A stretch of DNA of 64,000 bases, from NCBI GenBank assembly GCA_905181615.1, contig CAJIYH010000002.1, forward strand, positions 496,001 to 560,000, read 5' to 3'. Made by a program: the position numbers and the translations under genes. The notes below the pieces were generated by a model that was given only the letters and a program-made list of their open reading frames with translations, did no database searches and was not told the origin of the DNA. Below are positions 26,984-44,781 of the stretch, one piece after another (position 1 is the first letter of the stretch; every line of letters starts with the position of its first letter). Source of the stretch: an uncultured Flavobacteriaceae bacterium. GTDB lineage: Bacteria > Bacteroidota > Bacteroidia > Flavobacteriales > Flavobacteriaceae.

Positions 26984-27321
26984 CAAATCTTTCAAAGAGT
27001 TTGGTTTTATATTCAAATTGTTTCGATACACACTAGGTGTAATTTAAATAAGGGGCCAAAAATAAATTTAAAGTAATACTTTAACCAGATAAAAGAATAC
27101 ACGCTATATTTAGTAAATTAAAAATTTAACTTTTGTATTTTAAAATATTGATTAATAATTAATTATAGATTACTATAAGTAATTCTTATGTAAGATTTTC
27201 TGCAAAATAACAGGAAAAAACTGTTTTGAAATAGAATTATTTATTCACAATTTAAAAAAAAAAAACAATTTTTAGTGCAACTGTTGTTAATGTTCTATAT
27301 TCATAACTTTAAAACTATTTT

Positions 27322-28647
27322 ATGATTAAGCCAAAAGTTGCTTTAGTTAAAGGAAGTAAGAAATTGATAAATGCTTGGGCATTTTATGACTGGGCAAATT
27401 CTGTCTATCCTCTAGTAATTTCCTCTGCCATTTTTCCGATCTATTATGGAATGGTTTTTTCCGAAAATAACCAGATAGACTTTTTTGGCTATTCAGTCAA
27501 AAACACAGCAATGATAAGTTTTGTTACAGCACTTGCATTTATTGTAGTTGCCTTAATTTCCCCAATTTTATCTGGAATTGCAGATTATGCAGGAAATAAG
27601 AAAAAATTCATGAAGTTTTTTGTTCTAATGGGATCAATTTCATGTGTTGGATTGTATTGGTTTAATTTAGAAACAATTTATTTAGGTTTCTTATTCTATT
27701 TTTTAGCTATGATTGGTCTATGGTCAAGTTTAGTTTTTTATAACTCATACTTACCTGATATTGCTTACGAGGATCAACAAGACCGTGCTTCAGCCAAGGG
27801 TTACTCCATGGGTTATATAGGAAGTGTCTTGTTGCTCTTATTCAATTTATCTATGGTTATGATGCCCGACGCTTATGGAATTGAGGGTAATGAAACTGAA
27901 GCTGCAATGACCGCAATGAAATATTCTTTCATTTCAGTTGGAGTTTGGTGGGCTATATTCAGTCTGTATTCGTTTTATTATTTACCAGTTGGAACTTCTG
28001 ATCAAAAGGTGACTAAAAATATTATCTGGAATGGTTTTAAAGAATTACATAATGTTTGGAACGAAATGGCAGAAAATCTTCGTTTAAAGCGCTATTTGAT
28101 TGCTTTCTTTGTATACAGTACTTCACTTCAGACCGTGATGCTGGTTGCTGCATATTTCGGAGAAGAGGAGATTGATTGGGGGTCGAACGCCGATAAAACA
28201 CAAGGATTAATCATAAGTATCTTATTGATTCAAATTGTTGCTATTGCTGGAGCGATAATCACTGCAGGTTGTTCAGAGCGTTTTGGGAATTTAAAAACGC
28301 TTTTTGTTATTAATTTAATATGGGCTTCAATTTGCATTTGTGCTTTTTTTATTCATACACCACAAGAGTTTTATTTTATAGCCGGTTTTGTAGGACTGGT
28401 AATGGGCGGATTACAGGCGTTGTCTCGATCTACCTATTCAAAATTCCTTCCAGAAACCGAAGATACCGCGTCATACTTTAGTTTCTATGGAGTTACCGAA
28501 AAGATAGCTATAGTTATCGGGATGGTTCTTTTTGGAGTTTTAGATCAAATAACCGGAAGTATGCGTACATCCATTTTGTTTTTTTGTGTATTCTTTGTTA
28601 TTGGTGCGCTGATGCTTCTTAGAGTGCCTAAAGAGAATGAGGCTTAG
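27322..28647 (+). CDS. MFS transporter, UMF1-like
   Basis: 441 residues with about 12 hydrophobic segments. The N-terminus INAWAFYDWANSVYPLVISS is characteristic of the UMF1/Atg22-like MFS branch (AWxxYDWANSxY), and YNSYLPDIA plus GGLQALSRSTYSK are conserved loops. Atg22 relatives export amino acids from vacuoles, but the bacterial substrate is unknown. Ends overlap the convergent DUF2807 remnant by four bases. Confidence 0.88.
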   Translation: MIKPKVALVKGSKKLINAWAFYDWANSVYPLVISSAIFPIYYGMVFSENNQIDFFGYSVKNTAMISFVTALAFIVVALISPILSGIADYAGNKKKFMKFFVLMGSISCVGLYWFNLETIYLGFLFYFLAMIGLWSSLVFYNSYLPDIAYEDQQDRASAKGYSMGYIGSVLLLLFNLSMVMMPDAYGIEGNETEAAMTAMKYSFISVGVWWAIFSLYSFYYLPVGTSDQKVTKNIIWNGFKELHNVWNEMAENLRLKRYLIAFFVYSTSLQTVMLVAAYFGEEEIDWGSNADKTQGLIISILLIQIVAIAGAIITAGCSERFGNLKTLFVINLIWASICICAFFIHTPQEFYFIAGFVGLVMGGLQALSRSTYSKFLPETEDTASYFSFYGVTEKIAIVIGMVLFGVLDQITGSMRTSILFFCVFFVIGALMLLRVPKENEA

Positions 28648-43066: not shown

Positions 43067-43753
43067 TTAAATATCTAAATCAAATTCTTTACGTAACAAA
43101 TCAATTGCTGGATTGATTTCTTTTAGGCGCTCGTATTTTTCTTCCGAAGTGTAAATGAAGTTTTTCTCTATTTTTTCATCTACAATAACCTTAATCGACA
43201 AGTCATAATTATGAAGATTTTTTCTTAAATATGGAATGAATTCGGTAAACTCTCTTTCTAATTCAACTTTATTCATATCTGAAGGTACGCTGAAATGAAT
43301 CTCGGTCTCCGTATTAAAAACAGGCTTACTTATGTTAAGCAATGACCCTATGTTCTGATATCCATTTTCAAATTTTTTATTCTTATAGATATCCCAAAAA
43401 CTCAAAAGTTGTTCTTCTGTAAATGATTTAGCAGGCAGATCCTGAGTTACTTCATCTGGTTTTTGTTCTCGTTTCCATTCTTTTTTTCGTTTGATACTGG
43501 AAAGAGAGAAACTAGAAATTTGATTGGATTGAAGTGCTCCTTTATTAATTTCAGGCTTGATAATAATAAGTTCTTCTTGAGAAGATTCAATTTTATTGTC
43601 AGCTGTTTTTTCTTGAATATTTTCTTCGATAACTTTCTTATCGTCTAAAGATGCTATATTTTGACTTCCAGAGGACTTTAACTTATGGGTTGGAATTAGT
43701 GTTCCTTTTTTTTTTCTCCATCGAAGTGGAGTGAAGCTAATTGCATGATACAA
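43067..43753 (-). CDS. dnaX: DnaX tau-specific C-terminal part, minus-1 frame relative to the start
   Basis: This frame continues the DnaX reading after a one-base shift at the A10 run (43706-43715 on the plus strand as T10). From the shift it encodes a basic, low-complexity linker and then a conserved-looking final domain with SFWDIYKNKKFENG, NTETEIHFSVPSDMNK, LRKNLHNYDLSIKVIV and a terminal DLLRKEFDLDI, comparable to tau domain V that binds the polymerase alpha subunit. It has no start of its own in the right place. Joined to the upstream frame the product would be about 571 residues. The frame is maintained, with no stops over 220 codons, which argues it is used. Confidence 0.85.
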   Translation of the reverse strand: MYHAISFTPLRWRKKKGTLIPTHKLKSSGSQNIASLDDKKVIEENIQEKTADNKIESSQEELIIIKPEINKGALQSNQISSFSLSSIKRKKEWKREQKPDEVTQDLPAKSFTEEQLLSFWDIYKNKKFENGYQNIGSLLNISKPVFNTETEIHFSVPSDMNKVELEREFTEFIPYLRKNLHNYDLSIKVIVDEKIEKNFIYTSEEKYERLKEINPAIDLLRKEFDLDI

Positions 43754-44781
43754 AGTTCAACGTGTAACCGTTTATTGTTACTGTTTTTGAAATTTAATTC
43801 ACATCCATGGGCCAAATCAATTGCATCAAGCAGATATCCGAGCGATAGCTGTTTTGCTTGATCGGCATATCCCTGTTGAAGACTTTCACTTATTTCCAGA
43901 AGTGGAATGGTTTTAGGGTCTTTACTGATTAACAAGTCTCTGAAGTGAATTGCTAGTCCTGACATAAATTGATGTCCTTCAATTCCTTTTTGAAGAATGC
44001 TGTCAAACTGCATCAGACTTTCGGGAATGTTATGTTCAATAAGATGATTTGTAAACTCTAAATAAGCTCCTTTGTCAAGAATATTAAGGTTTTCTGAAAC
44101 AGCAGCAGCTGTTAAATTTTGATTGCAAAAACTACTCATTCGATCAAAAATAGACAGTGCATCTCGCATTGCTCCATCTGCCTTTTGAGTGATTAAATGA
44201 AGTGCTTCATCTTCGTAAGCAACTCCTTGGTCCTTTGCCAAATCAATTAAATACTTTAGAGTGTCTTTGGCAGTGATTCTTTTAAACTCAAAGATTTGAC
44301 AACGGGATAGTATTGTAGGAATTATTTTATGTTTCTCGGTAGTTGCAAGAATAAATATTACATGTTTAGGCGGTTCTTCTAATGTTTTTAAAAACGCATT
44401 AAAGGCTGCGGTAGAAAGCATATGTACCTCATCAATTATATAAACTTTGTGACTTCCTGTTTGGGGAGGAATTCGTACTTGTTCATTCAAATTGCGAATA
44501 TCGTCGACAGAGTTGTTTGAAGCTGCATCAAGCTCAAAAATATTAAAAGCAAAATCTTGATTGGGATCAATATTTTCATGATCTGTACTATTTATTTGCT
44601 TAGCTAAAATGCGGGCACATGTAGTTTTACCAACCCCACGTGGTCCACAAAAAAGTAATGCTTGAGGTAATTTATTATTAAGAATGGCACTGCTTAAAGA
44701 ATCCGTAATAGCCGCTTGCCCAACAACATCTTTGAATTGTTGTGGACGGTATTTTAAGGCAGATACAATAAAAGGTTCCAT
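43696..44781 (-). CDS. dnaX: DNA polymerase III subunit gamma (N-terminal frame of dnaX)
   Basis: 361 residues. Clamp-loader ATPase. Seen: Walker A GPRGVGKTTCARILA (about 46-60), Walker B YIIDEVHML, the sensor LATTEKHKIIPTILSRCQ, and lid and collar domains. The four zinc cysteines common in DnaX are absent, as in other Bacteroidetes. The frame stops three codons after a lysine run encoded by A10, giving a gamma-like product; the rest of DnaX lies in the minus-1 frame (43067-43753). Programmed slippage or a homopolymer error would both explain this. Confidence 0.93.
   Translation of the reverse strand: MEPFIVSALKYRPQQFKDVVGQAAITDSLSSAILNNKLPQALLFCGPRGVGKTTCARILAKQINSTDHENIDPNQDFAFNIFELDAASNNSVDDIRNLNEQVRIPPQTGSHKVYIIDEVHMLSTAAFNAFLKTLEEPPKHVIFILATTEKHKIIPTILSRCQIFEFKRITAKDTLKYLIDLAKDQGVAYEDEALHLITQKADGAMRDALSIFDRMSSFCNQNLTAAAVSENLNILDKGAYLEFTNHLIEHNIPESLMQFDSILQKGIEGHQFMSGLAIHFRDLLISKDPKTIPLLEISESLQQGYADQAKQLSLGYLLDAIDLAHGCELNFKNSNNKRLHVELCIMQLASLHFDGEKKKEH
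43706..43715 (-). promoter_or_regulatory. dnaX: A10 slippery run in dnaX
   Basis: In the mRNA sense the site reads GGAG-A10-GGAAC. In frame zero this is GAA AAA AAA AAG, which contains the A AAA AAG heptamer used for minus-1 frameshifting in E. coli dnaX, and the stop TAA follows two codons later. A 5-bp stem CTCCA/TGGAG (6-base loop) lies directly upstream and a 4-bp stem GGAA/TTCC directly downstream. Long A-runs also permit transcriptional slippage, as reported for Thermus dnaX. Confidence 0.6.

Follow-up and report, generated by a model that had tools for sequence, protein, structure and literature searches.

The locus described here raises the question of how a gene that appears broken could give two products. 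In an uncultured Flavobacteriaceae bacterium, dnaX carries a one-frame split at ten consecutive A residues, and an initial annotation left open whether this is programmed slippage or a homopolymer error. The gene lies in a stretch of 64,000 nucleotides, hereafter the window (assembly GCA_905181615.1, contig CAJIYH010000002.1, positions 496,001 to 560,000), which belongs to a genome of 2.19 Mb in 7 contigs. The split is biology and not error, the latter being excluded by the relatives, and transcription is indicated as the level that deserves attention. Judged from sequence, the window dnaX is quite probably a transcript-slippage switch giving gamma and tau from one gene.

The gene is on the minus strand and starts with an ATG at 44781. 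Its 0-frame ORF (43696..44781, stop included) has 361 codons and a 3' end that reads GAT GGA GAA AAA AAA AAG GAA CAC TAA. The A10 run, the candidate slip site, occupies 43706..43715. The TAA that ends the gamma-like product (43698-43696) follows two codons later and lies within the tau-frame codons CTA ATT (Leu-Ile). The 361-residue product and its stop two codons after the run are thus as first annotated. The tau-specific tail (43067..43705) continues in the -1 frame, which is indeed open, for 212 codons and not for the 220 claimed, and its stop is at 43069-43067. Mechanical ORF calling gives this tail 228 aa, counted from an upstream TTG. In the third register, a TAA is found at 43683..43685; the stops come 2 codons (0 frame) and 6 codons (third frame) after A10. 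Runs of at least A10 occur at two places in the window, with 4 pattern matches against 9.95 expected from shuffles, i.e., no enrichment. The other such run is an A12 at 27254-27265; it lies outside ORFs of at least 60 aa and upstream of a 441-aa ORF at 27322.

Head and tail are the two ends of one gamma/tau protein model. The head matches TIGR02397 (dnaX_nterm) with 378.5 bits at a cut-off of 250, which makes it a clamp-loader ATPase of the dnaX family. It covers positions 1-370 of NF011531, and tail residues 43-212 cover positions 443-613 of the 614 in the same model (1.9e-19); head alone and tail alone each stay below the whole-protein cut-off of 685. For the tail, no Pfam family was found. 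A profile search of the tail against solved structures gave four matches, none of them significant (the third was DnaA, E 0.39). The AlphaFold model of the tail (43070-43705) has a mean pLDDT of 75.2 and a pTM of 0.46, with blocks at 72-95 from residue 91 onwards, and the last ~115 residues are predicted as a compact domain. The best Foldseek matches of this model in the PDB, DciA and DnaA domain I, were not significant (E 0.07-0.19). Over its whole length, the tail can be aligned with the tails of 44 relatives that are in frame 0, -1 or +1, with W104 and N198 invariant, and its conservation starts directly after the A-run with LIPT. The functions of gamma and tau in this organism are assumed here from general knowledge of clamp loaders.

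The same layout is found throughout the genus. Nineteen genomes were searched, and a dnaX match (E 1e-60 or better) was obtained in 18, with none in G014; among named records, the genus is represented by Candidatus Arcticimaribacter and by MAGs labelled Flavobacteriaceae or Flavobacteriales. All 18 genes show GGA GAA AAA AAA AAG, two codons, a TAA and a tail in the -1 frame, except that in one of them (L012) a change of AAG to AAA makes the run A11. The 0-frame stop lies 2 codons past the run in 18/18, and the third-frame stop 0-22 codons past it. Complete tails are open in 17/17 (210-231 codons), the remaining one (L013) being cut by a contig end. The tail has a median dN/dS of 0.19 (51/136 pairs usable) and the head one of 0.056 (44/153), both limited by saturation. 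Because synonymous differences are near saturation, the agreement in frame goes beyond mere recency of descent. Comparison of run length and frame in related genomes, the check that had been proposed, thus revealed one split common to the whole genus.

Several simpler explanations can be weighed against these data. Homopolymers such as A10 are error-prone, and single +1 cases elsewhere (e.g., L276, L184) may be errors; for the window gene, however, frame and stop are the same in 18/18 relatives, drawn from many assemblies, and all complete tails are open, so the chance of a sequencing error is negligible. It is also very improbable that only gamma is made and that the tail is a decaying remnant. 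The split itself would fit such decay, and a short dnaX is possible in very small symbiont genomes (L059), but the complete tails of the genus are open, with the median dN/dS of 0.19 given above, and the window tail aligns along its whole length with the tails of unsplit relatives. Translation of the tail on its own, by re-initiation past the gamma stop, would give gamma and a separate tau-tail protein. The gamma stop does fall within the tail ORF; nevertheless, no start codon is conserved, 7/17 complete tails are without any ATG, the others have their first ATG at codon 63 or later, and the conserved LIPT residues come directly after the run. This reading is accordingly given very little weight. 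The run length could, in addition, differ in the DNA between cells and turn tau on and off by phase variation. A10 runs mutate readily, and frames differ between related species, seven genera having more than one state. Against this, the frame relation is identical in all 18 genus members despite the near-saturated synonymous sites, and tau is expected to be necessary in every cell, which leaves phase variation highly unlikely.

The history of the frame was followed beyond the genus. Searches covered 60 relatives, 299 family genomes, 146 order genomes (140 matched) and 148 class genomes (145 matched). Split genes, defined as an open frame <470 aa, were tallied in the order and class searches and amounted to 66/140 and 43/145 genomes, respectively; these are upper figures, as they include contig-end cuts (L048, L196, L322) and short genes without a run. 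Junctions were read in 256 loci, i.e., 255 distinct dnaX genes, with split genes over-sampled on purpose. Left out before counting were L024, L048 and L196 (contig ends), L059, L326 and L327 (unclear) and L270 (no run found). Named loci, many of them from the same genomes, were kept out of the counts. A clear tau frame was assigned in 248/255 genes, with 123 in frame 0, 112 in -1 and 13 in +1, figures inflated by shared descent; by genus (154 in all), 98 show frame 0, 52 show -1 and 11 show +1.

The run itself is common to all three states. A9-A14 stands at the junction in 238 of the 248 clear genes, and A10 in 188, compared with 19 runs of at least A9 elsewhere in the same genes (428,398 bases). 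Neighbouring lysines elsewhere are both encoded by AAA in only 51%. A run of at least A9 is present in 116/123 frame-0, 109/112 -1 and 13/13 +1 genes. Relatives with one uninterrupted frame and no long A-run, which had been named as the observation that speaks against slippage, are hence not the rule, the run being kept in those 116 unsplit genes. The -1 state is the only one among the 17 genes read in genus g132 and the 23 read in family f5. In one of the seven mixed genera (g20), G037 has A11 and -1, and G052 has A10 and +1. The +1 state is shared by two genomes of genus g52 (L277 and L281), and it is also found in the named isolate Aquimarina agarivorans HQM9 (L100). On a FastTree gene tree of the 248 heads, on which alone the flips were counted, the three states require 41 changes, compared with a mean of 89.9 and a minimum of 80 for shuffled labels (50 shuffles). 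Collapsing weak branches reduces this to 34 (support 90), 24 (support 95) and 8 (support 99).

A few genes depart from this pattern. In a 0.3-Mb genome (L059, G051) and in Bacteroides sp. cpbc052018 (L123, 0.49-Mb chromosome), dnaX ends at 345 and 353 aa, respectively, and no long open tail was found after either stop. Such reduced genomes possibly encode gamma only. Genus g226 includes two 0.6-Mb genomes (L273, L274) with A11, an immediate stop and a tail of ~130 codons in +1, and two further members (L271, L272) with dnaX in one frame. In genus g284 (L326, L327, L328), the gene ends at 406-420 aa, and its junction lacks any run of six or more A's. Outside the class, three Acidobacteria MAGs (L126, L128, L137) and an Aminicenantes MAG (L134) have a one-frame dnaX whose gamma/tau junction carries A9-A10, and at least one of the other frames is closed within 0-2 codons. 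A Thermus-like layout may, to judge from these genes, exist beyond Bacteroidia.

The frames that do not lead to tau are closed early. The ten of the 248 genes with runs <9 were omitted from this test as well as from the hairpin and folding tests. Both non-tau frames are closed within 6 codons past the run in 182/238 genes, compared with 2069/11,899 (17%) random places in the same genes, with medians of 2 and 8 codons. Part of this closure is embedded in the tau codons. Among 118 genes with at least 60% identity and a run of at least 9, 97 carry an [ILV][ILV]P motif just past the run, and the other 21 lack it. A stop (TAA) is formed by the first motif codon and the next base in 94/97 genes, which are related by descent and not independent. 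Isoleucine at this position is ATA in 74/76 cases, compared with an ATA share of 21.8% elsewhere in these genes, and leucine is TTA or CTA in 20/20, compared with 46.7%. An off-frame stop is found at the motif in 46 of the 49 unsplit relatives that have it, at the same place as the gamma TAA in the window.

Next to the run, the message can fold. Immediately 5' of A10, 16 nt (43716..43731, minus strand) can form a potential nascent-RNA stem-loop of CUCCA, a 6-nt loop and UGGAG, whose stem end touches the run. Both the upstream 5-bp stem and the GGAG listed by the initial annotation are present, the latter as the 3' arm of this very stem. Five pairs are possible in 18/18 genus members; a sixth is possible in 9/18, as U-A in 8 and C-G in 1, and is an unpaired C.A in the other 9. 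The control kept the protein fixed and drew codons by each gene's usage, uncorrected for descent. In the family of the window (f1), an abutting stem of at least 5 bp was found in 97/109 genes, compared with 25.9 expected under this control. The excess is seen in each state, i.e., in frame 0 (50/57, 13.0 expected), in -1 (42/46, 11.3) and in +1 (5/6, 1.6), and also when averaged by genus (56.5/67, 15.2 expected). Other random windows of the f1 genes have the stem in 321/2180 cases, again uncorrected for descent. Outside f1, the signal is weak (40/129, 25.6 expected), and family f5 has the stem in only 1/23 genes. When covariation was tested across the family in a single register of 8 bp, 287/432 cells were paired, compared with a shuffle mean of 275.9 and a maximum of 294. 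Since these shuffles gave no support, the case for the hairpin rests on the synonymous-codon control and the random windows.

Several features point to slippage during transcription, namely the run length, the run being kept in three states, the two shift directions, the stops in the other frames and the hairpin in f1; transcript slippage is favoured because of them. According to Antonov et al. (PMC3711429), mixed shift direction among orthologues is a mark of transcriptional realignment. In the window, RNA polymerase would slip on the A10 run and produce a mixed message pool, probably aided by the small RNA hairpin just behind it. Messages with A10 would give gamma (361 aa), those with A11 or A8 full tau (571 or 570 aa), and those with A9 or A12 a gamma-like protein of 365 or 366 aa that ends at the third-register TAA, six codons past the run. 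Both clamp-loader proteins would thereby come from one gene, and the genomic frame would matter little, having flipped repeatedly across the class. That slippage takes place at transcription, at what rate, and with which role for the hairpin, is what we infer.

Programmed -1 ribosomal frameshifting at A_AAA_AAG on a faithful A10 message would also produce tau, alone or together with transcript slippage. The heptamer is in frame at the window's A10 run, as had been claimed, and is found in 47 of the 109 -1 genes with a run of at least 9. The only Lys tRNAs found are UUU (30 of 33 tRNA matches read), a feature shared with bacteria in which A_AAA_AAG is a site of shifting. Moreover, -1 outnumbers +1 (112 vs 13 genes, 52 vs 11 genera), as -1 ribosomal shifting predicts, and this excess counts against slippage. 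Atkins et al. (2016) describe reversed dnaX cases as ribosomal, with E. coli-like stimulators in Chlorobium phaeobacteroides. However, a ribosomal heptamer requires just 6-7 A's, and 109/112 -1 genes have at least 9; the 13 +1 genes with the same run call for a shift in the opposite direction. Shine-Dalgarno (SD)-like motifs within 20 nt are equally common in -1 and frame-0 genes (56/109 vs 58/116), E. coli-like SD spacing is present in 14/109 -1, 9/116 frame-0 and 5/13 +1 genes, and the GGAG of the window ends at the run. The small downstream stem noted in the initial annotation exists with 4 bp, but its stability does not exceed that of shuffles (75 nt downstream, z 0.15; 141 nt around the site, z -0.22). 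Across the genus, downstream folding is close to random, and a downstream stem of only 3 pairs is predicted in 11/18 members, with the third pair broken in 3/11. In the -1 genes of the class, downstream folding is slightly below controls (mean -0.63 vs -0.27; z < -2 in 16/109 vs 8/108). Bacteroidia ribosomes are described to sequester the anti-SD (PMC9976891), and poor shifting at prfB was reported for Flavobacterium johnsoniae (PMC12421855). Ribosomal shifting is therefore judged rather unlikely. A comparison of 43400-44000 with Rfam returned no dnaX element among matches up to E 10. An E. coli-like spaced SD and a downstream stem-loop were also considered as stimulators and set aside, since neither is conserved.

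Transcript slippage has its own difficulties besides the excess of -1. The third-frame stop in the window's genus can lie as far as 22 codons out, and the hairpin is missing in f5. In the window, A/T runs of 9 are not avoided (8 vs 9.1 expected), and runs of 10 or more number 2 vs ~5.8 expected. Because only the latter are avoided, a slip-prone polymerase is without independent support. Of the first reading of programmed slippage, the A-run as a conserved slip site has stood, and the E. coli-type ribosomal version is the less well supported part. Together, a stretch of some ten A's, stops soon afterwards in both non-tau frames and, in the family of the window, an abutting RNA hairpin would form a slip cassette that is a conserved unit of Bacteroidia dnaX. 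On balance, we lean towards the view that the genomic frame wanders among three states around this cassette, with slippage so efficient that one-base indels beside the run are near-neutral and, in terms of expression, split and unsplit genes do not differ. The principle that a single base can exchange the roles when efficiency is close to 50% is noted by Atkins et al. (2016). If the reading is true, many Bacteroidia rely on polymerase slippage for one of two products of a replication gene, and relatives in all three frame states offer a natural series for asking why gamma persists. A short gamma/tau annotation does not necessarily imply a missing tau.

The inverted dnaX layout has been known since Antonov et al. 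(2013), and the window gene is a further example. They reported 17 two-ORF dnaX genes from 12 genera that depend on recoding to make tau, found ten A's in nine of the 17 and proposed transcriptional realignment (PMC3711429). As in the window, gamma stops in frame 0 right past the poly-A, tau is in -1 and the split is conserved among orthologues. Their cluster is -1 only, whereas Bacteroidia also show +1. In their paper, supplement aside, there is no mention of the window's genus, the +1 state, the embedded stop or the abutting hairpin. Likewise, no description of the three-state history across the class, the embedded-stop constraint or the abutting dnaX hairpin was found in the open-licence literature, again with the Antonov supplement aside.

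Other systems resemble the window gene in part. E. coli dnaX shares the A_AAA_AAG heptamer and the production of gamma and tau from one gene (PMC5009743). In E. coli, an SD and a downstream stem-loop stimulate a shift that leads to the shorter product (PMC5009743); in the window, the shift would lead to the longer one, and neither stimulator is conserved. The inverted logic proposed in the initial annotation is thus supported, and the layout was already in print (PMC3711429). Thermus thermophilus dnaX is alike in its A-run (A9), its mixed messages and its close stops in the other frames (Larsen et al. 2000, as cited in PMC1088944 and PMC5009743). The stops in both other frames (PMC1088944) recur in Bacteroidia dnaX, and the window has an A-run of at least 9 (A10) and close stops in both. 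The genomic frame differs, as it encodes tau in T. thermophilus and gamma in the window. For the hairpin, the nearest likeness is a Roseiflexus IS630-type transposase, in which a nascent-RNA stem-loop directly 5' of the slip motif enables slippage (PMC5009743). In Roseiflexus, a strong GC stem precedes T5C5 and one base is lost, whereas in the window a stem of 5-6 bp precedes A10, and tau would require one base gained or two lost.
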